This document shows positions 1,300 through 23,451 of a stretch of 63,728 nucleotides of DNA, piece after piece. The notes beneath the pieces were generated by a model. It was not told the origin of the DNA. It searched no databases and worked only from the letters and a program-made list of their open reading frames with translations. A program made the position numbers and the translations under genes. The stretch covers positions 1 through 63,728 of the forward strand of contig JAHFCT010000017.1 in the NCBI GenBank assembly GCA_023249375.1, read 5' to 3'. How positions within the stretch are numbered: the first letter of the stretch is position 1; the number at the start of each line of letters is the position of its first letter. Source of the DNA: Gemmatimonadota bacterium (GTDB lineage Bacteria > Gemmatimonadota > Gemmatimonadetes > Gemmatimonadales > Gemmatimonadaceae).

Positions 1300-1860
1300 A
1301 TGGAGCGCAGAAAGAGCCGCCCAAAACCTTTGATGACCGCGACTCGCATGCCGTGTTTGACCCGGCACGAGACAGCACGGCGCCTCGGAATCCCGCGTGG
1401 AACGCTGCGCCAGTGGGAAAAGGACGGGCGCATCCGAGCGACGGTCTGTGAGGCCGGCTGGCACTGGTTCGATCCAGAGGAGGTCGCAGCGCTGCAAGAG
1501 CGCGTCCGGCCGCAAAGCGCGCGCGCGTTCGATCTCTTCGCCCAAGGCAAGAGCACCGTGGATGTGATCATCGCGCTCAAGTGCGAGCACCACGTCGTGC
1601 GCGGCTGGAAAGAAGCCTTCGAGCGCTACCAGATGGCCGACAGCCAGCAGCTGGTGATCAAGCTCCCGCTCGGCATCGAGCACTGGGCCAAGGCTTTCAA
1701 CTGCTCGGTCGAAGACCTGCGCTCGCCGCTGAAGCTGTTGTGCGCGCTCGAAATCTGCATGGCCGTGCCCGAGTTGCGCCGCAGCCTCGAGCAAGCCGTG
1801 GAGCAGGCCAGTAAGCCCGTCGAGCCGTCGATGTCGGTCGGTAAACAGGAGGCTGAATGA
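1300..1860 (+). CDS. MerR-type helix-turn-helix regulator
   Basis: The 186-residue protein begins with a winged-helix DNA-binding segment, LTRHETARRLGIPRGTLRQW, followed by EKDGRIRA and a Trp/Phe-containing wing, as in MerR-like excisionase and regulator proteins. A second helical part (about 70-170) lacks a known effector domain. The ATG at 1333 is an in-frame alternative start. The gene is divergent from the coat-protein operon and ends in an ATGA overlap with the next gene. Inference: it regulates the flanking promoters. Confidence 0.75.
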   Translation: MERRKSRPKPLMTATRMPCLTRHETARRLGIPRGTLRQWEKDGRIRATVCEAGWHWFDPEEVAALQERVRPQSARAFDLFAQGKSTVDVIIALKCEHHVVRGWKEAFERYQMADSQQLVIKLPLGIEHWAKAFNCSVEDLRSPLKLLCALEICMAVPELRRSLEQAVEQASKPVEPSMSVGKQEAE

Positions 1861-2096
1861 ACGGCTGGGAAACCAACGAGCGCGGGGACTGGCTCGTGAC
1901 GCAGGTTCTCACCCTGCGCGTGTTCGAGTGCAGCGGAGGCTTCGCGTGGAGCATCACCAACGATGAGGGCGGGCACATGGCCGAGTGCAGCGAGGCATCG
2001 ACGAGCCGGCAGATGGCGCGCGAGGCCGCTACGGACGCTGCCTGCGAGCTGCTCGACGCCGCGCGCGCGCTCTTGCTCGCTGCTCGAGCGCCGTAG
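1857..2096 (+). CDS. Small unknown protein coupled to the MerR-like regulator
   Basis: This 79-residue protein overlaps the stop of the regulator by ATGA, so it is translationally coupled. It has Trp-rich beta-like strands in its first half and an Ala/Arg helix at the end. No family is recognised. It ends 31 bases before the first parS site. Confidence 0.65.
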   Translation: MNGWETNERGDWLVTQVLTLRVFECSGGFAWSITNDEGGHMAECSEASTSRQMAREAATDAACELLDAARALLLAARAP

Positions 2097-2127: not shown

Positions 2128-2143
2128 TGTTTCACGTGAAACA
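2128..2143. other. parS: parS site 1
   Basis: TGTTTCACGTGAAACA is an exact copy of the ParB-binding consensus known from Bacillus and Caulobacter chromosomes. Here the palindrome extends to 22 bases (2125-2146). It lies between two convergent gene ends, outside coding sequence. Confidence 0.9.
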
Positions 2144-2146
2144 GTC

Positions 2147-2863
2147 TCAGAACGGCACGTCTTGGCCTGACGCCGAGCGCTGGCCCAGCTCCCAGGCAGC
2201 CTGCTCTTCTTGCTGCGCCAGCTGCCGCTCGTACCGATCGGACTCGGACTCGAGCATCGCGTAGACCTCGGACTCGTGCTCGGCGACCCACTCGAGGAAC
2301 GCCTCGGTGCGCGACTTGCGGCTGGTCTCCACGATCTTGTGCTTGACCCGATGCCAGATCGGCACGAGCTCGTGCTCGATGTTGCGCTCGACGACCTCGT
2401 CCGCCTCGTCCTGCTGCTCGGCGCGGGCGAGGGCTGCCTGCCTGCGGCCACGGCCGCGAGCGGCGCCCGTCGGCTCACCGAAGGGCCGCGGGCGCGTGTA
2501 GATCGCCTCGGTGCGCTGACCCGCGCGCTCCTCGTGCACCGTGCGCCTGGCAGTGTCCAGAGCCTCGGTGCCGCGGCGGCGCGCGCGGGCGGTCGCCAGC
2601 CGGCACTGCTCGTCCGCTGCTTCGCGTTCGACCGCCAGCTCACGCTCGAGCTGCGCGCGGCGAGCGGCCCCGGTGCGCTGCAGGCGGCGCTGAGCCAACT
2701 CGCACAGGGCACGTACTTCGGCGATGAACTCGCCGCGGCGGCGCTGAGCAGCCTTCAGGTCGCTGCGGAGCTCGGCCAGACGCTGGCGCTTCTGCACGGC
2801 GCGGGCGCGCTCTTGCTCGCGCAGGATGGTGGAACGCTGCTGACGGGGGGTCTGGGCGGCCAT
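2147..2863 (-). CDS. Arg/Glu-rich coiled-coil protein between parS sites
   Basis: This 238-residue protein is dominated by charged heptad-like helices (about 1-120), then an Arg/Gly-rich linker, then a more ordered C-terminal part with LVPIWHRVKHKI and SRTEAFLEWVAEHE. The last motif resembles proteins I recall from other GC-rich bacterial elements. There is no DNA-binding motif of the ParB type. Two parS sites flank the gene (2128 and 2884), so a structural or segregation role is conceivable, but this is inference. Confidence 0.7.
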   Translation of the reverse strand: MAAQTPRQQRSTILREQERARAVQKRQRLAELRSDLKAAQRRRGEFIAEVRALCELAQRRLQRTGAARRAQLERELAVEREAADEQCRLATARARRRGTEALDTARRTVHEERAGQRTEAIYTRPRPFGEPTGAARGRGRRQAALARAEQQDEADEVVERNIEHELVPIWHRVKHKIVETSRKSRTEAFLEWVAEHESEVYAMLESESDRYERQLAQQEEQAAWELGQRSASGQDVPF

Positions 2864-2883
2864 GGCCCACGATAGCAGGGGTC

Positions 2884-2899
2884 TGTTTCACGTGAAACA
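2884..2899. other. parS: parS site 2
   Basis: Second exact TGTTTCACGTGAAACA, extended to an 18-base palindrome. It lies 20 bases upstream of the coiled-coil gene start. The position could also let bound protein affect that gene's transcription. Confidence 0.9.
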
Positions 2900-2900
2900 G

Positions 2901-3122
2901 TCAGCGACCACCGGCGCTCGACGGACGGCGCCAGCGCCCCGGCGCGCAGCCCGAGCAGCGGGCGTCGGGGTGACTGCAGCGGCAGAGCATCCTTCTGGGC
3001 ATCATCAGCCATGCCACGAGCGCCGCGCCCGCCGCAAAGGCAGCCAGATAGCCCAGCGCCGGCACCAGCAACGCCACCAACCACTGCAGGGACTCGTGGC
3101 TGGCGGCTGGGTCGAGCAGCAT
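2901..3122 (-). CDS. Membrane-anchored small Cys protein
   Basis: This 73-residue protein has a hydrophobic segment at about 14-42 and a Cys-rich tail (CRCSHPDARCSGC) that could bind zinc. The third parS site lies only two bases upstream of its ATG, leaving no ribosome site, so translation may begin at an internal GTG or by a leaderless route. The reading frame is plausible but not certain. Confidence 0.5.
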   Translation of the reverse strand: MLLDPAASHESLQWLVALLVPALGYLAAFAAGAALVAWLMMPRRMLCRCSHPDARCSGCAPGRWRRPSSAGGR

Positions 3123-3124
3123 GG

Positions 3125-3140
3125 TGTTTCACGTGAAACA
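3125..3140. other. parS: parS site 3
   Basis: Third exact TGTTTCACGTGAAACA, 241 bases from site 2 and 997 bases from site 1. The cluster of three within 1.0 kb resembles the centromere-like cluster of ParABS systems. Confidence 0.9.
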
Positions 3141-3147
3141 GTCGCGG

Positions 3148-3498
3148 TCAGGGCAGCGGCAAGAGCCCGCCCGAGATGCGCAGCAGGAACTGCGCAAGGC
3201 TCTCGCCCACGGCTTGCGCCACGCGCACATGCGTACGGTCAGCTGAGACCGCGTCCAGATGCCACTTGCCGGCGGCATAGCCCAGCACCACGACCTCGGC
3301 AGGCGCTTCGCCGTCGGCGTCTATCAGCCTGTCCTGCAAAAAGTCAGCAATCTCAGCCACTTGCACAAGCTGGTCGCAGTGCGCTGGACCCTGGTGGTAG
3401 GGCATGCCCCCAACCATCGTGGGTCGGTCGACCACGTATCCGCAACGCTCGCAGCGAACTTCGTGTTTGGTTTCGACCACTTGCTGTTCATTACTCAT
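3148..3498 (-). CDS. Zinc-ribbon small protein
   Basis: This 116-residue protein has CERCGYVVD and a later HQGPAHC that could complete a zinc site near the N-terminus, followed by a compact alpha/beta part. No catalytic motif is seen. It is one of more than thirty small Cys-pair proteins in this window. Confidence 0.75.
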   Translation of the reverse strand: MSNEQQVVETKHEVRCERCGYVVDRPTMVGGMPYHQGPAHCDQLVQVAEIADFLQDRLIDADGEAPAEVVVLGYAAGKWHLDAVSADRTHVRVAQAVGESLAQFLLRISGGLLPLP

Positions 3499-3851: not shown

Positions 3852-4433
3852 TCACCTACGCGTGAGCGCGAGCGCAGTCAGCGTGACCACCAACGCGCCC
3901 ATCGCCACCACCGCAAGGCCCATGCCGATGCCAGTGTTCGAGCGCGGCGTCAAGATCGTCGCCGGCCCGATCACCACCTCGTACTGTGGCAGCAGCTGCG
4001 CCGGACCGATCGTCACGTCCAGCACCTTGTCGAAGTTCGGCACCGAGCCCGGCACCCAGCGCGAGAACACCTTGCGCACGTAGCTCTTCACGTCGGAGCC
4101 CCAGCTGCCGGGGTCGGGCTTCTTGGCCACGTAGCCCGCGCCCGCGTTGTAGCCAGCCAGCACCTTCTCCCACGAGTCGGGGAACTGACGCAGGAGATCC
4201 GCGAGGTAGCGCGCGCCGGCAGATAAGCTCTGCGCCGGGTCGAACGGGTCGGTGACCTTCAGCGTCGTGATCGTGTCGGGCATGAGCTGCATCAGTCCCA
4301 TCGCGCCAGCCTCGGATACCGCCGTGCGATCACCCTCAGACTCGGTCGACATCACGGCATTCACCAGCGCGCGCGGCAGGCCGTGCTTGTCGGCGGCCAG
4401 GTTCGCGAGCTGCACGTACTGAGGATCGATCAT
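3852..4433 (-). CDS. Lytic transglycosylase with C-terminal membrane anchor
   Basis: The first ~115 of 193 residues form an SLT (goose-lysozyme-like) domain: STESEGD with the catalytic Glu, SEAGAMGLMQLMP, and LAGYNAGAGYV. This domain cleaves the glycan strand of peptidoglycan. Residues about 169-191 are a hydrophobic helix followed by TRR, giving a C-terminal anchor. A membrane-held transglycosylase in a virus-like gene set resembles PRD1 P7, which sits in the virion membrane and helps DNA entry (family knowledge). It overlaps the next upstream gene by ATGA. Confidence 0.88.
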   Translation of the reverse strand: MIDPQYVQLANLAADKHGLPRALVNAVMSTESEGDRTAVSEAGAMGLMQLMPDTITTLKVTDPFDPAQSLSAGARYLADLLRQFPDSWEKVLAGYNAGAGYVAKKPDPGSWGSDVKSYVRKVFSRWVPGSVPNFDKVLDVTIGPAQLLPQYEVVIGPATILTPRSNTGIGMGLAVVAMGALVVTLTALALTRR

Positions 4434-5730: not shown

Positions 5731-6384
5731 TCAGCGCTTGCGCGTGGGTTTGCCAGTGGGCTTGCGTGGGGTGGCACGGCGAGTCGGCTTGGGCGCCGCG
5801 CGGCGCGTGGCGGTTGTCGGAGCACGTTGATCGGGGTGCTCACGATCGTACTTCTCACCGAGCGCCAAATAATGACGATCCTGCGCAAGCCGTTCACGGC
5901 GCCAACGCCTGACGTACTGATCTCTCGTCTCACCGGGCAACACGTTGAGACCCTCGTGGTATTGGCGCCGAAGATCCGCGTCGCTCGCGGTGTCGCGGCG
6001 TTGTATGCGCATGAGTTCGCGGCCGACCGGATCCGATGGCTCGTCATCATCCTCTTCGTCTTGCTCTTCGGCTTCCGCGTCCCTGGCTTCTTGCTTGGCC
6101 TCCTGCAGCCACTCGTGGCCGGCTTGGAGCAAGCGCTCGTAGATCGCGATCTGGATACGCTTCCAGATGTCGGCGTCCGCAGGGACAAGGTCTGGTTCGT
6201 CGAGCGTCGCGAGCCCCGGATCGTCGGCGAGCAGCTCGGCCAGCTCGCGGTTGTAGACCGGCACCGCGCTGTCCGCGTACTCGTGCAACTCGTCCTCGGG
6301 ATACCGAGACTCGAGGATGCGTGCCTTGTCGGTGTTGAGCGTGTCGATGAAGTCGGCGATCTCAGCGCGCATCGTGGAGGCCAT
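5731..6384 (-). CDS. Unknown protein with acidic centre and very basic tail
   Basis: This 217-residue protein begins MASTMRAEIADFIDTL, has a strongly acidic stretch (EEQDEEDDDEPSD, about 105-118) and ends in a Lys/Arg/Thr/Pro-rich tail of about 40 residues resembling histone-like or DNA-condensing tails. The split charge suggests a nucleic-acid-binding or virion-interior protein. This is inference from composition only. Confidence 0.7.
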   Translation of the reverse strand: MASTMRAEIADFIDTLNTDKARILESRYPEDELHEYADSAVPVYNRELAELLADDPGLATLDEPDLVPADADIWKRIQIAIYERLLQAGHEWLQEAKQEARDAEAEEQDEEDDDEPSDPVGRELMRIQRRDTASDADLRRQYHEGLNVLPGETRDQYVRRWRRERLAQDRHYLALGEKYDREHPDQRAPTTATRRAAPKPTRRATPRKPTGKPTRKR

Positions 6385-9378: not shown

Positions 9379-9666
9379 TCAGTAGATGTACAGCGTCTGG
9401 ATCACGTCCAGCGGGATGAACCGCTGAGACTCGGGCGAGTCGGTGCGCTCGTTGATCGGATACACCCATATGCCGAACTCTCCGTGCTCCACGCCCGGCG
9501 ACCAAAGCGTGGCGTCGAAGCTACGGCGGCCCATGTTGTCGTAGAATCTCGGCTGGCGCATCTGCTGACGGCTGAGATCGATGCGCACGCGGTAGTCGCG
9601 CAGGCCACCGAAAATCGTCTCGAGCGTGTCCTGATCCGTGCCTTCTCCGAAGTCGATGTTCATCAT
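9379..9666 (-). CDS. Unknown 95-residue protein
   Basis: The start is MMNIDFGEG (either ATG at 9666 or 9663) after a GGAGA site. The protein is beta-rich with several Tyr and Arg (RQPRFYDNMGRRSFD). Its stop lies against the duplicated fragment at 9321-9378. Confidence 0.65.
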   Translation of the reverse strand: MMNIDFGEGTDQDTLETIFGGLRDYRVRIDLSRQQMRQPRFYDNMGRRSFDATLWSPGVEHGEFGIWVYPINERTDSPESQRFIPLDVIQTLYIY

Positions 9667-9769
9667 GGTCTCCTGTCGTAGTGAATAGCTGGCGCGCTCA
9701 GTCTTTCGCTCGCGCGAACTGCCCGGAGTCGCCGTCACGAAGAGTGTGGGGCCTCATCGTGGTTTACTT

Positions 9770-10288
9770 TCAGACCCAGCTGCGGATCACGCGGCCGTTC
9801 TGGTCGAGCAGATCGGTGTTGCCGCGCTCGTTGACGTACCAGACGTTGGGGTAGAGCCCGCCAGCCTGCATCGCTGCGTCGATCGCGCGCAGCGCTGCAC
9901 GCGTGGTCTCGAACTTGCCGAACAGGCGCTGGCCTCGGTAGACCTCTTTGCCCATGCCACGTCGGGCGTCTTGGATCACGTAGTCGTCATCGGCGATGAC
10001 CGGGCCCTGCGCGTGCTCGTCGGACTCGATGAGCGCCTGCTCGGGAACAGCCACCTCGCGCCAGTCCCAGCTGCCACGGCCCAAGGAGCGGTTCTCGAAC
10101 GCGATCTGCGTCTTGTCACCAAGCTCCGGGAACATCGCGCGCTCGCGCTCGTCGACGTCGAACACGTGCACGTCGACACCATCGACGTCGTAGAGCGTGC
10201 CCCAGCCGTTGAGCATCACCGTGTGGAAGTGCTCCTCGGCAGCACTGTCAGCACGATGCAAACGAATCGGCCTGCGTGACCTCGGCAT
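9770..10288 (-). CDS. Unknown 172-residue protein with GNxDLLD...VIRxWV end
   Basis: It starts MPRSRRPIRLHRADS. The centre is acidic and beta-like (VDGVDVHVFDVDERERA) and the C-terminus, YVNERGNTDLLDQNGRVIR, is the part repeated at 9321. The central YDVDGVDVHVFDVD segment suggests a small beta domain. No function is assigned. Confidence 0.7.
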   Translation of the reverse strand: MPRSRRPIRLHRADSAAEEHFHTVMLNGWGTLYDVDGVDVHVFDVDERERAMFPELGDKTQIAFENRSLGRGSWDWREVAVPEQALIESDEHAQGPVIADDDYVIQDARRGMGKEVYRGQRLFGKFETTRAALRAIDAAMQAGGLYPNVWYVNERGNTDLLDQNGRVIRSWV

Positions 10289-10290
10289 AG

Positions 10291-10740
10291 CTATCTCCTA
10301 CGTGGCGGCTGACGTGGTGGTTGACGTGGCGCAGGCCCAGGTCCCGGCTCGCGCTGGGCCAACTCCATGAGCGTGTGCAGCATGTGAGCCGTCAGCTCGA
10401 CGCCCGAATCCTCGATCTGCCAGTCGCCGTCTTCGTCTTGCGTGCGCAGCACGAAGTACAGCGGCTCGTAGAGATCGCCCTCGCTCCACACGAGGAATAC
10501 TTCGCCTGCGCGCAGCAGCCGACGATCCACGACGAGCCGCAGGTCAGCAGGCAGCCGCCAGACGTATCTCGCCGACCAGTCTGCGCCGCCCGTGCGCTGC
10601 GGGGTCATCAGACCGTTGATGGCTCGCACCAGAGCGTCGCGCCACACGTCTCGACGCCGAGCGCCATGCGCATCGTACCCATCGAGATCAACGTCTCCTG
10701 GGCGAAAGTAGTGCAGGATGTCGCGCGCTGTCTCGGACAT
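10291..10740 (-). CDS. Unknown 149-residue protein
   Basis: From MSETARDILHYFRPG it has an alpha/beta middle (LRLVVDRRLLRAGEVFLVW) and a Pro/Arg repeat tail (RQPPRQPPRRR). The tail suggests binding to nucleic acid or to a surface. It lies four bases from the upstream gene. Confidence 0.65.
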   Translation of the reverse strand: MSETARDILHYFRPGDVDLDGYDAHGARRRDVWRDALVRAINGLMTPQRTGGADWSARYVWRLPADLRLVVDRRLLRAGEVFLVWSEGDLYEPLYFVLRTQDEDGDWQIEDSGVELTAHMLHTLMELAQREPGPGPAPRQPPRQPPRRR

Positions 10741-10744
10741 GGCC

Positions 10745-11158
10745 TCAGTATTCCGCTTGCGAGAACTCGTCGAAGTCCGCACCGAGCAGCCGGTGCACCT
10801 TGGGCGCGAGCGCCTGCACCGACTTGAAGATCGCTTCGGCTGCGCGCGAGTCGGTGTCGTAGCCGAGCTCGCCCGCCCAGTCCTCGAAGCTGCGCGACGC
10901 ATCGATGCCGCTGACGTCGCTCAGGAGCGCGCCGATGACTTCGTACGCCTGCGGCTCTTCGCCGTGGTGTCCAGAGCCCATGAAGAACGGCACGGTCAGC
11001 TTGCGGCCCTTGTAGCTCAGCGTGACCATCCACGCGTCCGCGCCACCTTCGCGCGCCCAGCTGGGGATGAGACGCTCGGGCACGCCGTACTTCGATGCGG
11101 ACTTCAGGCCCTTTTGATCGGCCAGATTCTTCAGCTGAACCGTGTCGTGTGGGTGCAT
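10745..11158 (-). CDS. Conserved phage/plasmid protein with GSGHxGxxP...GYDTDSR motifs
   Basis: This 137-residue protein has a beta half (DAWMVTLSYKGRKLTVPFFM) followed by GSGHHGEEPQAYEVIGALLSD, FEDWAGELGYDTDSRAAEA and LGADFDEFS. I recall this architecture from many phages, where it remains of unknown function. Length is typical. It is the first gene downstream of the G-rich intergenic stretch. Confidence 0.75.
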   Translation of the reverse strand: MHPHDTVQLKNLADQKGLKSASKYGVPERLIPSWAREGGADAWMVTLSYKGRKLTVPFFMGSGHHGEEPQAYEVIGALLSDVSGIDASRSFEDWAGELGYDTDSRAAEAIFKSVQALAPKVHRLLGADFDEFSQAEY

Positions 11159-11316
11159 GATCTACCTCGTCTGGTGTGGCGTCGGGGAGACGAATCCAGC
11201 AGCAGAGGATTCATTGTCGCCCAAGACGCTGGCACCCACAAGCCGGCCGGCCAGAGAGCACTGGGCGGGCAGTGACGGGCGCGGGCCCGGGCGGGCGCTG
11301 GCGGGCGCGTGCCGCC
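11159..11316. other. Intergenic stretch with G-quadruplex-type motif
   Basis: The plus strand carries seven GGG runs between 11263 and 11305, separated by one to seven bases, enough for a G-quadruplex. The region lies upstream of the gene ending at 10745 and downstream of the gene at 11317. No start codon is better placed here. Confidence 0.55.
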
Positions 11317-11538
11317 TCAGTCGGGACGCTTGGCGCCGTGCTCTTCTTGCCACGCCTCCATGGCGTCCGCGAGCTTGTGGGCCTCCTGGGTCTTGGCCTT
11401 GGGGGCGCCCGCCTGGTGCGCCAGCTGCGCCCACTTGCGCACGATGATCGGAGCCAGTTGATCTTGCGCGCGCAGCACGAAGATCGGTTCGGACTCGCCG
11501 CACTTCTTTAGGCACTCATCGGTATGCTTGGTGGCCAT
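11317..11538 (-). CDS. Small conserved phage-type protein
   Basis: The 73-residue protein contains EPIFVLRAQDQLAPIIVRKW, a stretch I recall from small phage proteins of unknown role, followed by a charged helical tail. Its start lies inside the end of the C5-methyltransferase gene (23-base overlap). Confidence 0.75.
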   Translation of the reverse strand: MATKHTDECLKKCGESEPIFVLRAQDQLAPIIVRKWAQLAHQAGAPKAKTQEAHKLADAMEAWQEEHGAKRPD

Positions 11539-12655
11539 GTTGCTCCTCGAGTAAGTGGATCACGTAGCCGATCACTTCTGCGACCTGCGGGACAACCGCG
11601 TTGCCGAGAGCTCGGAGGCGAGGGCCGCTCGAGACTCCGCGGTTAGCTCCGTCCACCCCATGGGGAATCCTTGCAGCCACTCGACAAAACGAGGGTTGAG
11701 CGCTGGCTTGCACTCGCCGCCATGCGTGCACGTCGTTGGGGGCTGGTGGCCAGCACGGCAAGTTGCATCCGTCAGGCTCGTGCCCGGATGAGCCTCCGAG
11801 TCCGGATTGGCGTTGCGCGAGCCCGACGCTTCGGCATCGCCCGCTGTCGGCGTCGGCCAGCTCGCCGCTAGCGCGTTGAGCGGCTTGCTGTTGCGCTCTT
11901 GCTGCGATGTCGAGCCGTGGTTCGAGCCGTCCTGCTTCGTGGGCGTCGGCCAAGACTTCAGCGCTTGACCCGCCAGCAACGGTTCGCCCTGACGGTCGTG
12001 ACTTCTGCTCAGCTGATTGCTGCGCGAGGCCGTCGGCGTCGGCCACTGCTCCGGGTTCGGGGCCAACGATCTGGCCCACGTGCTCAGGCTCGGCGTGCCC
12101 GCTGTCGGACGCTCGTGCGGGACCTCGCCCTCGTTCTGACTGGTGCCGTAGTCCGTCGCGCTGGGAGTCGGATACTCGCCACGCGACCATGTAGAGCCGG
12201 TCTCGACGGTGAGGGGCGCCGACGGCGGCAGCGGGTATGCAGTCCCACCACGCATCGTACCCGAGCGCGGCCAGGTCACCGAGCACTCGGTCAACGCCTC
12301 GAATAAGGAGAGCTGCGACGTTTTCCACGACGACGTACCTGGGTCGTAGCTCGCCAACGATCCTTGCGTACTGGGTCCACAGCCCAGAGCGCGCGCCATC
12401 GAGGCCCTCACCTTTTCCAGCAAGGCTGATGTCCTGACACGGAAACCCTCCGCAGAGGATGTCGACTCGCTCGGCGCTGTCAGCTGTGACATCTCGGACA
12501 TCGGCATAGCGTTTTGCCCCTGGGTAGTGTTGTGCCAGCACCGCGCGGCAGAAGAGATCGTTCTCAGCCTGCCAGAGCACGCGAGCGCCTAGCGCGCGCT
12601 CGAGACCTAGCTCGAGCCCGGCGATCCCGCTGAAGAGTGAGCCGATGGTCAGCAT
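11516..12655 (-). CDS. DNA (cytosine-5) methyltransferase
   Basis: This 379-residue enzyme has the C5-methylase motifs in order: SAM loop FSGIAGLELG (about 8-17), catalytic GGFPCQDIS (Cys about 73), VVENVAALL (about 110), PHRRDR (about 146), and the C-terminal RLRALGNAVVPQ. The region between about 160 and 300 is a run of short repeats of the V/LADAD type, as seen in phage methylases. It would protect DNA from host restriction. The same bases also encode a family-like protein in the +1 frame (see 11572-12507). It overlaps both neighbours. Confidence 0.88.
   Translation of the reverse strand: MLTIGSLFSGIAGLELGLERALGARVLWQAENDLFCRAVLAQHYPGAKRYADVRDVTADSAERVDILCGGFPCQDISLAGKGEGLDGARSGLWTQYARIVGELRPRYVVVENVAALLIRGVDRVLGDLAALGYDAWWDCIPAAAVGAPHRRDRLYMVAWRVSDSQRDGLRHQSERGRGPARASDSGHAEPEHVGQIVGPEPGAVADADGLAQQSAEQKSRPSGRTVAGGSSAEVLADAHEAGRLEPRLDIAARAQQQAAQRASGELADADSGRCRSVGLAQRQSGLGGSSGHEPDGCNLPCWPPAPNDVHAWRRVQASAQPSFCRVAARIPHGVDGANRGVSSGPRLRALGNAVVPQVAEVIGYVIHLLEEQHGHQAYR
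11572..12507 (-). CDS. Overlapping-frame protein with WPRSGTM and WPTPxAxD repeats
   Basis: Read one base out of frame with the methyltransferase, 311 codons give a protein with SWKTSQLSLFEALTECS, TWPRSGTMRGGTAYPLPP, four YPTP/WPTP repeats (YPTPSATD, WPTPTASR, WPTPTKQD, WPTPTAGD) and LNPRFVEWLQGFPMGWTEL. From memory, exactly this architecture occurs as annotated proteins in many phages. Each WPTP copy is the other frame of the methylase repeat (V/L)ADA. It may be a true dual-coded gene or a frame conserved only by the methylase; I favour coding with moderate confidence. Confidence 0.5.
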   Translation of the reverse strand: MPMSEMSQLTAPSESTSSAEGFRVRTSALLEKVRASMARALGCGPSTQGSLASYDPGTSSWKTSQLSLFEALTECSVTWPRSGTMRGGTAYPLPPSAPLTVETGSTWSRGEYPTPSATDYGTSQNEGEVPHERPTAGTPSLSTWARSLAPNPEQWPTPTASRSNQLSRSHDRQGEPLLAGQALKSWPTPTKQDGSNHGSTSQQERNSKPLNALAASWPTPTAGDAEASGSRNANPDSEAHPGTSLTDATCRAGHQPPTTCTHGGECKPALNPRFVEWLQGFPMGWTELTAESRAALASELSATRLSRRSQK

Positions 12656-13827
12656 CACTTCTCCATGATCAGGCCAAGCTGCGAAGGCTGGCTGCTGCGG
12701 TCGGACTTCTGCTGCGACAACTCGGGCGTGAGCACGCCCTTGGACTCGGCGGCGCCCAGCACGCGCTTGTGCGCCAGCTCGATGTACTCGGCTTTCAGGT
12801 CGATGCCGATGAAATGCCGGCCCAACTCGAGCGCCACCGCGCCGGTCGTACCACTGCCACAGAATGGATCGAGCACCACGCCGGACTTGGGAGAGCCCGC
12901 CAACACGCAGGGCCGGACAAGCTGCGGCGGGAACGTCGCGAAGTGCGCCTCGTCGTACGGCTCGCTCTGCACGGTCCACACGTCGCGCTTGTTGCGCTTG
13001 TCCACGAGCTTGGTCACGGCCTTGTTCCAACTCTCGTTGTTCTTCACGCCCTGACCTTTTTTGTGCGACTTGGGCGTGACGCCATGGCCACGCGCATGCG
13101 CAGTGCCCGCGACCTTTTCCATGATCGCAGCCTTGTCGTAGAAGTAGCTCGCGCTCTTGGTCAGCAGGAACAGCTGCTCGTGCGCGCGCGTGGGCCGGTC
13201 TTCGATGCTCTCGGGCATCGGGTTGGGCTTGTGCCAGATGATCTCAGAGCGCAGATACCAGCCGCGCCTGCGCGCCTCGAACGCGAACATCCACGGCACG
13301 CCGACCATGTCCTTGGGCTTGAGATCGCCGCCGCGCTTGGGCCGGTCGATGCGCGCCGTGAATGTGCGACTGAAACGGTCGCCAGTGAGACCCTGGCCGC
13401 CACCGGCGTTGCCACAGTACGAGTCGCCAAGGTTTACCCAGCAGGTGCCGTCTGGACGCAGCACGCGGCGCACCTCGTCGAAGATCGTGGCGAGCTTGTC
13501 GATGAACTCGTCGACCGACTCCTCGAGCCCAAGCTGCTGATCAACGCGCTTGGCTCCGCAGCGCTTGCACACGCTCTTGTAGCTGGCGCAGCCGTTGGCG
13601 GCGAGGGTCTCAGCGTCGTTCTGAGCCGAGCCGTTGAGCGTGGACTTGGCCGTGCCGCCCTTGTTGATCTGGTGCTTGCACTCGGGATTGGTGCCGCCCT
13701 CCCAGCGGCCGGTGCCGTAGTCGCGCAGGCCCCAGTACGGGGGAGACGTCACCACGCAGTGCACGCTGTCGTCGGGCAGCGTGCGCAGCACCTCGAGCGC
13801 CTCACCGTGATGCAGCTGGTAGCTCAT
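12655..13827 (-). CDS. SPPY-type DNA methyltransferase (N4-cytosine or N6-adenine)
   Basis: This 390-residue protein has catalytic TSPPYWGLRD near residue 30 and the SAM site DPFCGSGTTG near 330, an order typical of class beta amino-methyltransferases. PNPMPES and FFL/FLLTKSASYFYD-type segments are usual in this family. A central CKRC pair and CKH could bind zinc. It overlaps the C5-methylase stop (ATGA) and the next gene. Probable role: self-protection or epigenetic marking of the element. Confidence 0.88.
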   Translation of the reverse strand: MSYQLHHGEALEVLRTLPDDSVHCVVTSPPYWGLRDYGTGRWEGGTNPECKHQINKGGTAKSTLNGSAQNDAETLAANGCASYKSVCKRCGAKRVDQQLGLEESVDEFIDKLATIFDEVRRVLRPDGTCWVNLGDSYCGNAGGGQGLTGDRFSRTFTARIDRPKRGGDLKPKDMVGVPWMFAFEARRRGWYLRSEIIWHKPNPMPESIEDRPTRAHEQLFLLTKSASYFYDKAAIMEKVAGTAHARGHGVTPKSHKKGQGVKNNESWNKAVTKLVDKRNKRDVWTVQSEPYDEAHFATFPPQLVRPCVLAGSPKSGVVLDPFCGSGTTGAVALELGRHFIGIDLKAEYIELAHKRVLGAAESKGVLTPELSQQKSDRSSQPSQLGLIMEK

Positions 13828-14426
13828 GGCAGCGACACCCACCGGCTGTGCTCGGGGTTCCAGTAGGCGCCAACTGGGTGTGCCTCGGAGCCCCGCTCCC
13901 AACGAACGCGATCGATGATCTCAGTGGATGGCTCGTAGAAGCCGGGGAGCCATGCGCGATCGCGATTGCCGGTGTCGTGTTGGCGGCCGACGGTCAGACC
14001 CACGGGGATCCAGTTGGCAGCGAGGTAGCAGCTGCCACGCTCATCCACGCGCGTGTAGCTGATACCCAGACGAACACCGGCTGCGTCCATGACGCGCCCA
14101 CACGCGCCGAGTAGCCGACTCGCGGTGTACTTCGGTGCTGCCGGGCCGCAGCACAAACGGGACACCTCCCAGACGTCCGAGCCGGTATCGCTTGGCGCAA
14201 CGGCTTCAGTCATGATCGCCACCGCCACTCTGTGCTCACCAACGAACGCCGAGAGCCGAAAGACGTCAGCCGCCTGCGTCTTACGCCTGTGATGGCTGTG
14301 GTGCTCAGCGACGAACGCACGCGCATCGCTGCGCCGACACGGCCGGATGCGTAGAGGCAAGCGCTCAGCGATGACCGCGTTCGGATCATCCGCCCCCCCC
14401 GGCGACCGCGGATCAACAGCGGTCAC
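13824..14426 (-). CDS. Acetyltransferase-like protein (XF1762/Mom-like)
   Basis: The 200-residue protein carries RRSDARAFVAEHHSHHRR, then AVAIMTEAVAP, EVSRLCCGP and LGISYTRVDERGS. These are the signatures I know from XF1762-type phage proteins of the GNAT superfamily. Mom of phage Mu, a DNA-base modifier, is a distant relative. Its place between methyltransferases and an MmcB-like protein supports a DNA-modification role, unproven. Confidence 0.72.
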   Translation of the reverse strand: MTAVDPRSPGGADDPNAVIAERLPLRIRPCRRSDARAFVAEHHSHHRRKTQAADVFRLSAFVGEHRVAVAIMTEAVAPSDTGSDVWEVSRLCCGPAAPKYTASRLLGACGRVMDAAGVRLGISYTRVDERGSCYLAANWIPVGLTVGRQHDTGNRDRAWLPGFYEPSTEIIDRVRWERGSEAHPVGAYWNPEHSRWVSLP

Positions 14427-15247
14427 GTCTTTGCGGGCTCCTCTTTGGATGCCGGCTGCGGCTTCAACTCGCTCGCGATCTTCTCAGCCACGGTAGCCAG
14501 CTCGCGCGCTCTGTAGGCGATGCCCTCAAACTGGTGAGAGGGGATCTGCAGCACCAGCCGCACGGCGTTGCCAAGCGTGGCCTGGTCCCAACCACGAGCG
14601 ATGTCCAGGCCAGAGGCTTTCTCGAACGCGCTCACGTCAGCCCTGAGAGCGCGCAGATCCATCAGCTCCAGTTGCATCTGTTGCTGCTCTTGACGCATCG
14701 CTTGCACGTCCGCGCCAACCTGCGCGACCTCTACGGAAGCTGCGCCCTGCCGCTTGGCCTCCGACAGCAGCGCGCTTTGAGACGCACCAAGCTGACGCAT
14801 CACCGAAGCCACGAACTCCACCGACAGCGGCTCGGCTTGCAGCTTTGGGGCCTGCTTCACGACTCGGCACTTGGCGCCGACTTCGATGTGGCCCCACGTC
14901 TCAGGCACCTCTCCAGGCTCCACGACGCCGGATGGCGCAGCGATGTACCAGTAGTCGCAGAACCGCTGGACCTCGTGGGACTTGCCTGGCTTCTTGAGCT
15001 CGGAGAGCCAGTCCGACCTCGACACCTTGACCTCGACACCTGCAAACCAGATCCCACGCGATGGCCACACGCTGGTGACCAGCGCGTCAGCAGTGCGCAC
15101 CGGACGCGCGTAGCCTGTGCCGTTGCGTACCTCGCGCAGCATCACGTGCGCGGGCGCACTGAAGAGACCGGCGGCGAGCTTGTCGAGCAGCTTGCTGGCC
15201 GTCATGGACGGCGCCGGCTTTGGCTTACTGCGCTTCTTGGCGCTCAC
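14423..15247 (-). CDS. MmcB-like (restriction-endonuclease-fold) protein
   Basis: GTG start in a GTGA overlap. Residues about 70-125 contain IWFAGVEVKVSRSDWLSELK, CDYWYIAAPSGVVEPGEVP and WGHIEVG. In this MmcB/DUF-type fold the E-x-K with following D marks the PD-(D/E)XK core, though nuclease activity is often unproven. The second half is a long helix (QEQQQMQLELMDLRAL). At 274 residues it is longer than plain MmcB proteins (about 150) because of that tail. It closes the modification island. Confidence 0.75.
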   Translation of the reverse strand: MSAKKRSKPKPAPSMTASKLLDKLAAGLFSAPAHVMLREVRNGTGYARPVRTADALVTSVWPSRGIWFAGVEVKVSRSDWLSELKKPGKSHEVQRFCDYWYIAAPSGVVEPGEVPETWGHIEVGAKCRVVKQAPKLQAEPLSVEFVASVMRQLGASQSALLSEAKRQGAASVEVAQVGADVQAMRQEQQQMQLELMDLRALRADVSAFEKASGLDIARGWDQATLGNAVRLVLQIPSHQFEGIAYRARELATVAEKIASELKPQPASKEEPAKT

Positions 15248-15438
15248 TGGCCGCTGCCGCTACTGCTGGGCATCTGCGCCGCGATGAAACCCTGCGCGGC
15301 AGCCGCCGCCACCAGAGAGCCCAGACCCACCACCGAGCGCGTCAGCGACTCGTTTTCCTTGGTCAGCCGATCGACCAGCTTGATCAGATCCTCACGCTCC
15401 ATGGTCATGCGGGCAGACACTGGGCTGGCGACACTCAT
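15244..15438 (-). CDS. Small coiled-coil/hydrophobic protein
   Basis: The 64-residue protein has a charged helix (REDLIKLVDRLTKENESL) followed by an Ala/Gly hydrophobic helix (about 35-55). It could be a small membrane-associated coiled coil. It overlaps neighbours at both ends by ATGA/GTGA. Confidence 0.7.
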   Translation of the reverse strand: MSVASPVSARMTMEREDLIKLVDRLTKENESLTRSVVGLGSLVAAAAAQGFIAAQMPSSSGSGQ

Positions 15439-15848
15439 GAGGCACCTCCGTGATGCGGTAAATGAAGCGGGCAGTAGTAGCGAAACGATGGGACCACGTC
15501 GCGATCGATCACAAAGCCCCAGCCGTCTGGACCGACAAGCTCGGTCGGGTATTCAGGCAGCTCACCCACTGGATGCTGCGCGGCGCAGATCTCACACTGC
15601 TCGAGCGCCAGCACATCGTTGGTACAGCGTAAGCACAGGTACGATCCGCAACGGCCATTCACGATCATCCATTCACGCACTGCACGGCCCGGCCTGATCT
15701 CTTCTCGGATCCGCTTGTGGCATCCAAGACAGCGCACCTTGGCGATGCGGTAGCCAAGCAACGACAGCAGCCAGCCCATCAGGATGCTGGCGGCGGCGAT
15801 GCCGGTGAACAGACCCACGAGCATCGCCACTGGTAGAGCTTGGTGCAT
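15435..15848 (-). CDS. Membrane protein with cytoplasmic zinc-ribbon part
   Basis: An N-terminal hydrophobic helix (about 6-30) precedes CLGCHKR, CLRC, CEIC and CPLH, enough for two zinc sites. The 137-residue layout (membrane helix plus zinc ribbons) recurs at 18411 and 20008. Unknown role. Confidence 0.75.
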   Translation of the reverse strand: MHQALPVAMLVGLFTGIAAASILMGWLLSLLGYRIAKVRCLGCHKRIREEIRPGRAVREWMIVNGRCGSYLCLRCTNDVLALEQCEICAAQHPVGELPEYPTELVGPDGWGFVIDRDVVPSFRYYCPLHLPHHGGAS

Positions 15849-15849
15849 C

Positions 15850-16101
15850 TTAGACTCCGCGCGAGATCACGAACACCACCAGAGCCGAGCCCAGCAGCAC
15901 CAGCGTCACTACCAGGATCGCCAGCATGCGAAAGAGCGCGCCGTCGTGACCGTCGATCTCCGCGCGCTCGAGCGCATCCAAGATCCGTTCCCGAAGATGC
16001 GCGAGGTCTTCGGGATCACGGGCGTCGGCGACGGTGATCTCCTTGGTGATCAAGTCGGCCGCGTTGATGTGGCTGCGACGAGCGTTAGAGGGGTGAGGCA
16101 T
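15850..16101 (-). CDS. C-terminally anchored membrane protein
   Basis: This 83-residue protein has a charged helical N-terminus and a hydrophobic helix at about 59-81 (MLAILVVTLVLLGSALVVFV). Single-pass tail-anchored layout. Confidence 0.72.
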   Translation of the reverse strand: MPHPSNARRSHINAADLITKEITVADARDPEDLAHLRERILDALERAEIDGHDGALFRMLAILVVTLVLLGSALVVFVISRGV

Positions 16102-16104
16102 CGG

Positions 16105-16302
16105 TCAGCCCTTCAGCGGATGAGGCACCAGGCGCGGCCGGGCGACCAGGCGCGGCTGCGGCTTGTAGAACAGAGCGCAGTGCAGATCGAGCACCTCCTC
16201 TTTGAGCTCGCGCGGCGGCGAGCCCGAAGGCGCGCTAGCCTGCTTCAGCAGCGCGCGCTTTTTCTGGTACTTCTCGTAGATCCTGTCATCGACGGCGATC
16301 AT
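16105..16302 (-). CDS. Small basic protein
   Basis: 65 residues, Lys/Arg-rich, mostly helical with a basic Pro-containing end (RLVARPRLVPHPLKG). It overlaps the next gene by 17 bases. No motif. Confidence 0.62.
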   Translation of the reverse strand: MIAVDDRIYEKYQKKRALLKQASAPSGSPPRELKEEVLDLHCALFYKPQPRLVARPRLVPHPLKG

Positions 16303-16717
16303 TGAGCTTCACCTCCACCAGATCCGCAATGGTCAGCAGCAAACGGCTGCAGTTGTGAAAGTGTACCGCACATGCCCGCATCTCTTCGATCATGCTCACC
16401 ACCATCTTGCGCGGGTCGACAGGCGGCGGGGGCGGCGGTAGGCGCGGCGCGTCGTACGCAGGGCCTTGCCAGCCACGCGGGTCGTTGAAGGCGCCACGGT
16501 GTGCGTACGGGCCTGTGGCTGGCCTTGGCGGCGGCACCGCGGCCGGGGGCGGCTCGGTAGGCTTCGGGCTCGCACCGGCCCACGCCCAGCCCGCTTCGCC
16601 TGGCACGCGCGCCTGCGCGCCGGCTGCAACCACTGAGCGCGTCTCGACCAGGAGCGCTTGGAGCGTGCGCTCGAGCTGGCTGAGCGAGCGCCGAATGTCT
16701 TTGAGTTGCTGGAACAT
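16286..16717 (-). CDS. Pro-rich linker protein with helical ends
   Basis: The 143-residue protein has an N-terminal coiled-coil-like helix (KDIRRSLSQLERTLQALL), a long Pro/Ala/Gly middle ending in PRLPPPPPPVDPRK, and a C-terminal helix with one His/Cys cluster. It looks like a spacer or structural tether. Confidence 0.68.
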   Translation of the reverse strand: MFQQLKDIRRSLSQLERTLQALLVETRSVVAAGAQARVPGEAGWAWAGASPKPTEPPPAAVPPPRPATGPYAHRGAFNDPRGWQGPAYDAPRLPPPPPPVDPRKMVVSMIEEMRACAVHFHNCSRLLLTIADLVEVKLNDRRR

Positions 16718-17059
16718 TCACGGTTGACCACTCTCAGCGGTGGGTGGTGACGAGGGCAGAGGCAGCGGCCGGGGAGTCTCAAGCTCCTCGATGGCCACGC
16801 TCAGCGCTCGGATCGAGTGCATCTCGTCATCGGAGCCGTGCACCGAGTGCGCGCTCTCGCCCAACAGGTGCCCGCGCAACATGCGCAGCTGCATCGCGGC
16901 GTCGGTGAGCCGCTTGACGAGGCCCTGCGGCGCCGCCAGCTCTTCAGAGGCTTCACGCATCGCACGCACGAGGAGGTTGTCGGGAGCGAAACCCACGAAG
17001 AGCTCGTGGGACTCGAGCAGCAAGCGGCTCAACTCCTGGCGGCTGAGACGATCACTCAT
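16718..17059 (-). CDS. Unknown helical protein
   Basis: 113 residues, largely helical (SRQELSRLLLESHELF), with a Pro/Ser-rich C-terminus. It overlaps the next gene by eight bases. Not recognised. Confidence 0.68.
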   Translation of the reverse strand: MSDRLSRQELSRLLLESHELFVGFAPDNLLVRAMREASEELAAPQGLVKRLTDAAMQLRMLRGHLLGESAHSVHGSDDEMHSIRALSVAIEELETPRPLPLPSSPPTAESGQP

Positions 17060-17339
17060 GGCGGTCCAGCTCCGAAGCCAGACGATCGAAGAGCACTGCG
17101 AGCACTTCGGGGGTCACATTGTCAGGCCGACCAGCGCGCAGCTGCGCCGCCGTGCTTCGCAGCTCGAGCGCCAGGCGCTGCGAAACAGAAGGCTCGGCTT
17201 GCCCGTCGGCCGACTCTTGCGCCATCGCCGTCAGCTTCATGCGCAGCCATGCAGCCACCGACTCGGGCTTGGCCTGACGCTCGATCCAGCGCAGCACCTT
17301 GAGCGGCACGCGCGTCTGTACCAGCGAGCGCTCAGCCAT
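17052..17339 (-). CDS. Ribbon-helix-helix-like small protein
   Basis: The N-terminus SLVQTRVPLKVLRWIERQA followed by ESVAAWLRMKL fits a short strand plus two helices, as in Arc/CopG repressors. The remaining ~45 residues are helical. If correct, it would be a small DNA-binding regulator of this operon. Confidence 0.6.
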   Translation of the reverse strand: MAERSLVQTRVPLKVLRWIERQAKPESVAAWLRMKLTAMAQESADGQAEPSVSQRLALELRSTAAQLRAGRPDNVTPEVLAVLFDRLASELDRHE

Positions 17340-17946
17340 TGGAGTGCTCCTGGCCGTCTCTACCCACGCTGATCATCGGCTCGGGTTTGGGATCGGGCGG
17401 CAGCGGAGCCACCGGCGCGCAGAACGCGCAGCTGGCGATGCTGGCCTTCCACTCCGGGCCGTGCTCGGGGTAGCCCCACAAGAGACCGTAGGCGTGCGCC
17501 AAAGCGTTGACGCAGCGCTCGCAGCTGCGGGCGGCAATCAGGATGGCTTGCTCAAGCGTGTAGCGCGGCGGCAACTCGACGCGCGAGATCGATGCCTGCG
17601 TCCCTTGCGCGATGCGCTCGGCCATCGCACGCACGCCATGACCCGCTGGCTCGGAGAGCCGACGACGCATGAGCGCGCGGCGCAGCGCGTGGTTCGCTTC
17701 CTGGATGCTCGGCCGGCACATCGCCAATACGAGATCAGGATGGCAGCCCTTGCTCAAGAGCGGAGCATCCGAGCGCCAGCCGTCGGCGGCTTGCGTGGAG
17801 GTCTCGCGGTGCAGCACCAGCGGCGACTCGTGCAGCATGCGCGTGAAGCCGGCAGGCGGGTCAGTCCTGTCCGCCGTCGGCAGCCAACGCTCGCCCGCCG
17901 CGTTCTCGAACCACAGCGTGATCAGACTTTGGGGATCGATGTGCAT
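17332..17946 (-). CDS. Unknown 204-residue protein with late Cys pair
   Basis: The front half is beta-like (LITLWFENAAGERWLP), the middle helical with many Arg. CERC near the middle and CAFC near the end may pair to bind zinc. It abuts its upstream neighbour by one base. Confidence 0.68.
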   Translation of the reverse strand: MHIDPQSLITLWFENAAGERWLPTADRTDPPAGFTRMLHESPLVLHRETSTQAADGWRSDAPLLSKGCHPDLVLAMCRPSIQEANHALRRALMRRRLSEPAGHGVRAMAERIAQGTQASISRVELPPRYTLEQAILIAARSCERCVNALAHAYGLLWGYPEHGPEWKASIASCAFCAPVAPLPPDPKPEPMISVGRDGQEHSNG

Positions 17947-18164
17947 CAGTGACCTCGCGCTTGTCGAGCCAGCGTTTCCAACGCGCAGTTGTAGGCCATG
18001 TCAAGGCCATGATGCAGCTCGTCTCGACTGTAATCAGGCACCGCGCCTATAACCAAGACCGTGAACAGCGCGGTGATCACGGTCTCTTTATGGACGCCGT
18101 CAGGGACGGCGTTGGCGATCTTGACCGCCAGATTGGCTGCTTCTTCTTGCTGGGGATCGCTCAC
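17946..18164 (-). CDS. Small helical protein
   Basis: 72 residues, helical throughout with a short hydrophobic run (VITALFTVLVIGAV, about 29-42) that is short for a membrane span. Coupled to the gene at 18161 by ATGA-type overlap. Confidence 0.68.
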   Translation of the reverse strand: MSDPQQEEAANLAVKIANAVPDGVHKETVITALFTVLVIGAVPDYSRDELHHGLDMAYNCALETLARQARGH

Positions 18165-18418
18165 TTGTCGGCTCCTTTTTTCGGCGGCTCCGAACCGAGA
18201 GCTTTGTTGGTGCCCGTCTTGAGCGTGCTGAATACTCGGCCCGCCAGGCGCGCGGTGCGCATGAAGTCGTCCATGCAGCCGGGACAGACGGGTTTACGAA
18301 CCTCGAACAGACCCAGCGGTTTCCACACGCAGCGCCACGTCGTCTTGTTCGAGCAGACCTCGCACGACTCCGCTGGATCGAGCGTGTTGACGTGAGAGAC
18401 TTTGGTGAAGTCAGCCAT
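18161..18418 (-). CDS. Zinc-ribbon small protein
   Basis: This 85-residue protein has CEVCSNKTTWRC and CPGC, matching a four-Cys ribbon, followed by a basic helical tail. The ATG at 18416-18418 was chosen because it overlaps the stop of the upstream gene. Confidence 0.75.
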   Translation of the reverse strand: MADFTKVSHVNTLDPAESCEVCSNKTTWRCVWKPLGLFEVRKPVCPGCMDDFMRTARLAGRVFSTLKTGTNKALGSEPPKKGADK

Positions 18419-18794
18419 GGAAGATCCTCTCGTCGTAGAGCCGGTGGCACTGGATGCAGCGCCGAAAGCTGATCGAGTCGTGCATCGAAGCTTCGTAGCG
18501 GAAGGGGTTGCTGAGTTGGCCGTCGCAGCGAGCGCAGCGCAGCCGAGAGAGCCGGCCCAGCGCCAGCCGCCGTAGCTGCAGGAACGCTGCTGCGAACGTG
18601 ATCGCCGCAAACGCGAACACCAGCGACCAGAGCACCGAATGCACAACGACCGCTTGGATTACCACCTGCGGCAGCGTGATGCAGAACGCGAGGCTGCACA
18701 GGTGCTCGGTCAGGCCCATGCCGGCAGTCAGCCAACCGAGTGAGCGTCTGGTCGTGGCGTTGTTCCTTTCACGGCGCGGATTCGGCTCAGCCAT
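18411..18794 (-). CDS. Two-helix membrane protein with zinc ribbon
   Basis: 127 residues from MAEPNPRRE after an excellent GGAGGTGA site. Two hydrophobic helices (about 22-72) are followed by CARCDGQ and CIQC, a C-terminal zinc ribbon. Same plan as 15435 and 20008. Confidence 0.78.
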   Translation of the reverse strand: MAEPNPRRERNNATTRRSLGWLTAGMGLTEHLCSLAFCITLPQVVIQAVVVHSVLWSLVFAFAAITFAAAFLQLRRLALGRLSRLRCARCDGQLSNPFRYEASMHDSISFRRCIQCHRLYDERIFHG

Positions 18795-19200
18795 GGTCAC
18801 CTCCGGTGTGGTCGCAGACCTCCCCGAATACGCGCCCCAGTCCAAGACAGCGTTTGCATTCCGCTTGTACACGCAGCCGCTTCATCAGATCTTGCGGATC
18901 GATGGCTGTTGCCTCCAGAGCCGCCACGCGCTCCTGCAACCTGCGCTCGTTGTCTACGGAACGCACGAGAGCGATCCGCAGCTCCGATTCGGTACGATGA
19001 TGCGGGATCTGCCCGGCAGCGAAGCTCACGCGCTGCGCGTCATACCGCAGCCGCGCGACCTCGGCCAGCGTCGCGTACACGCGAGTCATCATCGACGAGT
19101 GCAACGGGCCGTGAAGAGTCGTCGTCAACAGGTTGCGGATCTCGGCGTCGGTGAGCGGCGCGTGATCACGGATGTACTGCTCACGGGCTTCGTCAGTCAT
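18787..19200 (-). CDS. Coiled-coil protein with C-terminal Cys/His
   Basis: This 137-residue protein is helical and charged (EARLRYDAQRVSF-type), and ends with CKRCLGLGRVFGEVCDH, a DnaJ-like CxxCxG zinc motif. It overlaps both neighbours. Confidence 0.7.
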   Translation of the reverse strand: MTDEAREQYIRDHAPLTDAEIRNLLTTTLHGPLHSSMMTRVYATLAEVARLRYDAQRVSFAAGQIPHHRTESELRIALVRSVDNERRLQERVAALEATAIDPQDLMKRLRVQAECKRCLGLGRVFGEVCDHTGGDHG

Positions 19201-19580
19201 TGCTGGCACTCCGGGCAGCCAAGACGACCGCACTCATTGCCGCCACCGCAGTGATCGCCGGCTATCCCTGGATCAAGAAACTTCTGCTGCAACGAGCCGT
19301 CGACACCTGTGCGGTGGCAAAACTCGCCACCCCAGTGTTCGGAGCGTCGTTTTCCGCAGTCTTCGCGGCCACAGATCGTCGCTGCGCATGTCAGAGCCGC
19401 ATGCTGAGTTGCAAGTTGGACAGCGCGCGCCCGCTCGTCGGACTCGCATTGATCGAGGAAAGCATACAGCTGGTCGCGTGCGTCCTGCGCCAGCTGCAAC
19501 TGTGGCTCAGGGGCAACCGTGTGTTGGTACTGCCGCCGCACCAGCACCCGCGCCTGCTCGATCGTGATCCTGTCGTTCAT
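19197..19580 (-). CDS. Cys-rich protein
   Basis: 127 residues, helical N-terminal two thirds, then a Cys/His/Gly-rich end with CGREDCGKRR, CHRTG, CGGG, CGRLGCPEC. Several zinc sites are possible. Confidence 0.7.
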   Translation of the reverse strand: MNDRITIEQARVLVRRQYQHTVAPEPQLQLAQDARDQLYAFLDQCESDERARAVQLATQHAALTCAATICGREDCGKRRSEHWGGEFCHRTGVDGSLQQKFLDPGIAGDHCGGGNECGRLGCPECQQ

Positions 19581-20011
19581 GGCTTATCCTCGATCTCGAC
19601 CTTGGCTTCCCACACGCACGAGACGTGGAGCACCTTCCAGGACGTGTTCTGCACGCGCATGGTCAACGACACCCCTGGCGCGAGCCATCCGATCGCGGTG
19701 TCCCAGTTCTCGATGCCGAGCAGATGAGAGCACAGAGACTCCCAGCTGAAGGCGGGCCGGCCGAACGGCTTGGTCTGCCCGCCCTGGACATGCAGCACAA
19801 GCAGATCGCGCGCCATCTCGATGTCCATGCGCAAGCGCGTCGGCACCCATGGACCGTCTTGGGGTGTAACGACGAGCTCGCCATGCTCGAGCGGATTGAG
19901 CACGAGCGTGTTGCTCGCCAGCAGCACGCCCTTGATCGGACGCTCCGAGCGCGCACGCTTCTCTGCATCCATCCTTACCAGCATCTTTTTGAGCGCAGCA
20001 GGATAGGTCAT
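19577..20011 (-). CDS. Jelly-roll-like coat paralog
   Basis: In this 144-residue protein, PTRLRMDIEMARDLLVLHV, then PFGRPAFSWESL and SLTMRVQNTSWKVLHVSCVW follow the same order as in the coat-like gene. The TRLRMDxxxARxLLV stretch and the VQNTS...CVWE end closely match the protein at 30143 (ALRMDRQIASNLIV; EVSNTSQQPIKVACIWE). Probably a minor structural protein. Confidence 0.6.
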   Translation of the reverse strand: MTYPAALKKMLVRMDAEKRARSERPIKGVLLASNTLVLNPLEHGELVVTPQDGPWVPTRLRMDIEMARDLLVLHVQGGQTKPFGRPAFSWESLCSHLLGIENWDTAIGWLAPGVSLTMRVQNTSWKVLHVSCVWEAKVEIEDKP

Positions 20012-20346
20012 GGATCACAACTTTCCCGAGAGCGCTTCGCCTCGTAGTAGATGCCGGCCTTCGGCGCGCAGCTCACGCATGTGAAGCGAGCCCCGTGCAG
20101 GCCCTTCGAGCGCGGCAGGAACTCGAGGGCCGAGCCGCAGCAAGCGCAGTCGCCAGGCTCGACGAACGCCGGCTGCGCGCTCGAGTGCCGCTCGTACACC
20201 CAACCCACCATCGCCAGTAAAGCACCGGCAATCCCTAGACCCAGCCCGACCGAGAAGCGGATGTGCTGCTCGTACAGCACGCCGTCGATCACGATGGGCA
20301 CGCCTAGCCCCGTCATGAACGTGCCCGCCGACTTAGCGATCTTCAC
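20008..20346 (-). CDS. Membrane protein with zinc ribbon
   Basis: 112 residues with a hydrophobic helix at about 32-50 and a second weaker one before it, then CACCGS and CVSC. Third example of the membrane-plus-ribbon plan. ATGA overlap on its left. Confidence 0.75.
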   Translation of the reverse strand: MKIAKSAGTFMTGLGVPIVIDGVLYEQHIRFSVGLGLGIAGALLAMVGWVYERHSSAQPAFVEPGDCACCGSALEFLPRSKGLHGARFTCVSCAPKAGIYYEAKRSRESCDP

Positions 20347-20512
20347 GGGTGACTCCTGCCGTCGACTTGCCGTGCACGAAGCTCGCGATCCTCGAGACGC
20401 TCACGCCCAGCACGCCGCCCACGATCCACCCCGAAGCAGCCGATCGATCGCCGACCGCAAGCAGGCCCAGCGCCGGCAAGTTCACGATGAACAGCATGCC
20501 GAGGTAGCTCAT
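20333..20512 (-). CDS. 59-residue membrane protein
   Basis: MSYLGMLFIVNLPALGLLAV begins a two-helix hydrophobic protein ending GVTREDR and a TAA stop. The start overlaps the upstream stop by ATGA and the end overlaps the next start by 14 bases. It is easily missed because of its size. Confidence 0.68.
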   Translation of the reverse strand: MSYLGMLFIVNLPALGLLAVGDRSAASGWIVGGVLGVSVSRIASFVHGKSTAGVTREDR

Positions 20513-22114: not shown

Positions 22115-22173
22115 GGTGATGCAGCGTGCATCACACGGGCGCCAAGCGCAAGAGGTCAGGGCCCGCGGCCGGC

Positions 22174-23082: not shown

Positions 23083-23092
23083 GGATCACCTC

Positions 23093-23446: not shown

Positions 23447-23451
23447 GACGG

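Follow-up and report, generated by a model that had tools for sequence, protein, structure and literature searches.

Chromosome-type parS sites on a mobile element without visible partition genes, and in viral genomes: possible loading of host ParB

Three exact copies of the 16-bp chromosomal centromere parS are clustered on a contig from a Gemmatimonadota MAG. The explanation we favour, at somewhat better than even, is that they are functional sites that would load the ParB of a host onto an element with no visible partition genes of its own. Viral parS without ParB recurs far above chance and, in one terminase family, occupies a conserved position.

Results

The window analysed here is the entire contig C46 (63,728 nt), in which TGTTTCACGTGAAACA occurs exactly at positions 2128–2143, 2884–2899 and 3125–3140, so that the cluster within 1.0 kb described in an earlier note on this DNA is confirmed. 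Each copy matches the 16-bp chromosome-type consensus TGTTNCACGTGAAACA in full, and TGTTNCACGTGNAACA was found in the 63.7-kb window at these three sites only. A 19-bp core (TGTTTCACGTGAAACAGTC) is common to all three, and a 22-bp perfect palindrome encloses the first site and is centred on it; no longer duplication was seen from which the three could have originated. The earlier note had considered chance occurrence negligible, and across 100 shuffles the mean number of matches at ≤3 mismatches was indeed 0.15, with none reaching four. The shuffles, combined with the rarity of control palindromes in IMG/VR (below), rule out a chance match for the three sites.

A home-made gene call based on coding potential places all three sites between predicted genes, which agrees with the earlier description of non-coding sites, one convergent and two before gene starts. 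Site 1 occupies the intergenic junction at which a 79-aa ORF without a Pfam match (1857–2096 (+)) converges on the gene for a 238-aa protein (2147–2863 (−)) that lies between sites 1 and 2 and has no Pfam or PHROG match. Site 2 begins 20 bp ahead of the start codon (ATG) of this second ORF, while 2 bp separate site 3 from the upstream side of the ATG of a 73-aa ORF between sites 2 and 3 (2901–3122 (−)), which has a hydrophobic stretch (judged by eye) and a weak coding score. A 116-aa ORF without a Pfam match (3148–3498 (−)) lies upstream of site 3.

The placement of sites 2 and 3, 20 and 2 bp ahead of start codons, would suit gene control, with host ParB loaded so that its sliding or spreading represses the flanking genes, for example as a silencer of a dormant state. 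We consider this rather unlikely as the main explanation for C46, since site 1, at a convergent junction, is in a poor place for an operator. Alternatively, the palindrome may be an operator for a regulator of the element and merely resemble parS; an HTH/MerR-like DNA-binding protein (1333–1860 (+), 175 aa), not a ParB by Pfam and a candidate local regulator, is encoded beside the sites. However, all 16 parS positions are matched three times over, the two chromosomal forms of parS stand side by side in some phages (L102), and palindromes of the same composition with a CACGTG core are rare, which together make a private operator highly improbable.

C46 is binned with a 3.8-Mb MAG of 120 contigs; no overlap was found between its ends, and the contig is not closed. 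The gene call yielded about 129 ORFs, mostly short and mostly without known function. A 610-aa HUH-type replication protein (24407–26239 (−)) matches Rep_1 with an E-value of 1e-8, which exceeds the curated cut-off, and REP_ORF2-G2P more weakly; as in HUH rolling-circle replicons, it is predicted to be the replication initiator of the element itself. No relatives of this Rep were found among 50,697 phage records and 72,556 plasmids, in an IMG/VR motif scan or in 98 related genomes. Likewise, the collections searched held no confirmed homologues of the 238-aa protein, of a 474-aa ORF or of the left-end ORF (2–580 (−)), which is cut by the contig end, has no family match and gave a single-sequence fold too poor for identification (mean pLDDT 49). 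The contig also encodes an SLT transglycosylase (3852–4433 (−)), a marker of mobile elements or virion entry; an ocr-like anti-restriction protein (5731–6384 (−)), another mobile-element marker; an M23 endopeptidase (39600–40196 (+)), like the transglycosylase a wall hydrolase; a Mom-like protein; and N6/N4 and C5 DNA methylases. This gene content marks C46 as a mobile element, probably a phage or a phage-like plasmid, and the Rep without relatives points to a class not described before and longer than 63.7 kb. Terminase, portal and HK97 capsid genes, expected in Caudoviricetes, were absent among the PHROG and Pfam families listed for this incomplete contig.

Two further observations concern the same genes. 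The ocr-like DNA mimic makes up a putative counter-restriction set with the Mom-like protein and the methylases, which fall within 9379–26239 (−). The M23 peptidase shares 41% identity with the product of L297:17382–17768 in a 111-kb virus record (G132); no further genes common to C46 were found in that record, which itself carries parS and a ParB_N protein.

The earlier note had also stated that the window encodes neither ParA nor ParB, and this stands for the unclosed contig. Its predicted proteins included no ParB_N match and, at E≤1e-4, none to the ParA-type, ParM or TubZ Pfam families, and neither integrase nor partition families appeared among the Pfam and PHROG families listed; a self-encoded type Ia ParABS cassette was thus not found on C46, which is incomplete. 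The parAB search that the note had proposed, extended to the whole MAG, returned a single ParB_N match, on contig C73, with ParA and mnmG adjoining. This ParB appears canonical: it aligns with solved ParBs across the ParB_N and HTH domains, carries an LGRGL motif and has the RSTVAN recognition helix common to solved ParBs. The location of parAB-mnmG on C73, and the HUH Rep, ocr, Mom, methylases and small ORFs of C46, rule out an oriC-proximal chromosome fragment as the source of the window.

Since the element has no visible ParB gene, the protein of the host is probably borrowed; the note's suggestion of host ParB loaded for segregation or for control of neighbouring genes is thus supported in part. 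The cognate partition genes may instead lie in the missing part of the contig, with the chromosome-type parS as their own centromere. The contig is open, with an ORF truncated at its left end, and ParB_N matches occur in 4 of 80 viral records with parS. Partition genes normally adjoin their parS, yet none is found in the 60 kb to the right of the sites, the single ParB_N match in the MAG is chromosomal, and parS without ParB_N is the rule across viral records. A self-encoded ParAB is therefore quite improbable.

The note had further proposed comparison with the host's own parS. Just upstream of parA on C73 lies TGTTTCACGTGGAACA, one mismatch from parS, and outside C46 this is the only MAG site at ≤2 mismatches. 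The sites in the window are of the same type as TGTTYCACGTGRAACA, the form of parS on the chromosomes of the MAG and its genus, and a TGTTCCACGTGGAACA site is present by sequence match in four congeners. As in an SGI1-type parasite, then, the contig carries mimics of the site type of its MAG and genus and no parAB. Across the phylum, exact parS was found in 107 of 395 genomes, nearly all with one or two sites, and a reversed control gave zero in every genome listed. The MAG species would be the host of the element if the binning is right. GC content is equal (0.65 in C46 and the MAG); the tetranucleotide correlation between C46 and the MAG is ~0.4–0.6, versus 0.75–0.88 within the MAG. A CRISPR route to the host found no Cas1 in the genus.

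With correct binning, three perfect sites on the element would face one imperfect site on the chromosome, an imbalance that could point to decoys, in which the perfect sites titrate ParB off the single chromosomal parS and disturb host segregation or division for the benefit of the element. The parS mimics of SGI1 do destabilise the replicon that they parasitise, in a dose-dependent manner (PMC10954446). However, parS-bearing phage contigs mostly carry a single site, and decoys seem an improbable primary explanation.

In IMG/VR, two chromosomal forms of parS were each found in at least 120 contigs, versus five contigs each, and no clusters, for two control palindromes of the same composition and CACGTG core. 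Contigs with three to five clustered parS exist. Among the matches listed, 86 of 146 sites lie outside ORFs of ≥100 aa, compared with 26 expected, and for the second form the corresponding count is 65 versus 26. ParB_N is absent from 76 of the 80 parS-bearing virus records tested (46/50 and 30/30), an absence that weighs less than it would in complete genomes because many records are fragments. The parS-bearing records fall into several groups with unrelated gene content.

The largest parS-bearing group encodes a terminase of PHROG 38 and a portal protein of PHROG 1216. From 80 relatives (L301–L380) chosen by the terminase protein alone, without reference to parS, 63 distinct upstream regions were obtained. 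An exact parS lies 19–116 bp before the terL match in 36 of these; in one further region the best match has one mismatch, and in the remaining 26 at least four. Six control palindromes achieved no better than three mismatches in the same regions, and the columns flanking the terL parS are only 33–39% identical. This all-or-none pattern is as expected from selection on the whole site. Column invariance in an earlier alignment (A3) was dropped as evidence in favour of this terminase-based test, because the contigs in that alignment had been picked by exact parS, making the argument circular.

The same terminase family includes the cultured SAR11 (Pelagibacter) phage HTVC027P, in which CGTTTCACGTGAAACA, one mismatch from parS, lies between terS and terL (L133:15873); the phage has no annotated ParB. 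Convincing parS was not found in the stretches examined of HTVC023P and DSL-LC04, and the Streptomyces phages Yara and Chymera, distant relatives of the 24-site phage described below, gave no site at ≤1 mismatch to the 14-bp cores used. These absences, where examined, indicate that parS carriage is patchy.

The conserved position of parS before terL lends further weight to gene control. Ahead of this gene, segregation is no likelier a use than gene control, positioning of the genome or ParB capture. Furthermore, the occurrence of parS in apparently lytic tailed phages suggests that partition is not the sole use of viral parS.

An array occurs in a 116-kb phage record (G120; IMGVR_UViG_3300037518_000322), in which 24 sites of TGTTTCACGTGRAACA fall within ~21 kb (L381:11700–15691 and L382:5761–12396), spread among small genes. 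Its phage genes include a primase, a Dda-like helicase and a polynucleotide kinase, and no ParB_N match was found in it. The array could represent phage-wide operators that exploit host ParB, and it too is in keeping with gene control. Such control has an experimental counterpart in Pseudomonas aeruginosa, where an artificial parS with ParB represses adjacent genes (PMC7022226).

Discussion

At parS, ParB is loaded onto DNA in the form of a sliding CTP clamp, which makes contact with ParA and SMC. If the three sites on C46 function in this way, the element would replicate by its own HUH Rep, while host ParB would bind each site, close as a CTP clamp and slide onto the flanking DNA. The host ParA machinery, and perhaps SMC, would then handle the element like part of the host origin region, so that it gains partition or positioning without the cost of carrying parAB. 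ParB clamps spread across the flanking few kilobases may also dampen adjacent genes.

Such loading of host ParB would bring together the exact sites and their non-coding placement, a contig without partition-family matches, a MAG whose single ParB is chromosomal and has a parS of the same type, and the recurrence and positional conservation of parS in viral genomes without ParB_N. This reading presumes binding, clamp loading, a partition benefit and the MAG species as host. As to purpose, partition or positioning is the best single candidate, at about even, for an element that supplies its own replicase and shows neither an integrase nor a partition-family match. Repression of flanking genes comes a tentative second and ParB titration third. 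Against the favoured explanation as a whole, the contig is not closed, the host is assigned by binning, the tetranucleotide profile of C46 is unlike that of the MAG chromosome, and no relatives of the element were found in which its own sites might be seen to be conserved. The tailed phages with parS before terL look lytic and have no obvious need of partition, and HUH replicons, where they reach a high copy number, can do without it.

Several known systems share features with C46. IMEX phages such as CTXphi use the host XerCD/dif system and, like C46, carry a copy of a chromosome-maintenance site, although theirs is the recombination site dif and not the segregation site parS. Chromosomal ParABS of the Spo0J-Soj type has the same 16-bp consensus in clusters, near oriC, whereas the C46 sites are on a mobile element with no parAB alongside. 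The phage-borne centromeres of P1 and of the mycobacteriophages RedRock and Miko serve extrachromosomal maintenance, as those of C46 may do, but these phages supply ParA and ParB themselves and rely on other sites, direct repeats in RedRock and Miko (PMC7157519). The nearest precedent is the SGI1 family, mobile elements that likewise use the ParAB of another replicon: the two parS mimics of SGI1 stabilise it via the ParABS of the IncC plasmid (PMC10954446). SGI1 mimics a plasmid parS (a 22-bp inverted repeat) and integrates into the chromosome, whereas C46 carries the chromosomal consensus and no integrase-family match; binding and stability are proven for SGI1 and predicted for C46. A chromosomal par operon with one parS can stabilise plasmids (PMC7022226).

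No report of phages with host chromosomal parS and without ParB was found in a search of open PMC full texts. A survey of the ParB fold in phages deals with proteins (PMC12704722), and a pelagiphage survey that includes HTVC023P-type genomes does not mention parS (PMC9599517).

More broadly, our data make it probable that centromere parasitism is widespread, with many unrelated phages and phage-like elements carrying exact host parS and no ParB, and loading the ParB-CTP clamp of the host so that their genomes are positioned, segregated or regulated; C46 would be an instance in a new HUH-Rep element. The conserved position of some sites, upstream of terL, and the arrangement of others in an array of 24 bear on this view. 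If it is correct, the chromosome-segregation clamp of the host is a routine phage target, and a 16-bp site suffices for coupling a foreign genome to the ParB/SMC machinery. The reading of ParB ChIP data, of phage late-gene control and of phage-plasmid stability would change accordingly, and the SGI1 result would extend from plasmid to chromosomal centromeres. The idea lends itself to direct tests, given a known site sequence and, in the cultured SAR11 phage HTVC027P, a near-perfect site.

Finally, the window holds one further match at ≤3 mismatches, TGGTCCACGTGGAACA at 29195–29210, which is one mismatch from the TGTTCCACGTGGAACA chromosomal parS of the genus and is possibly a weak fourth parS, or else a chance match.
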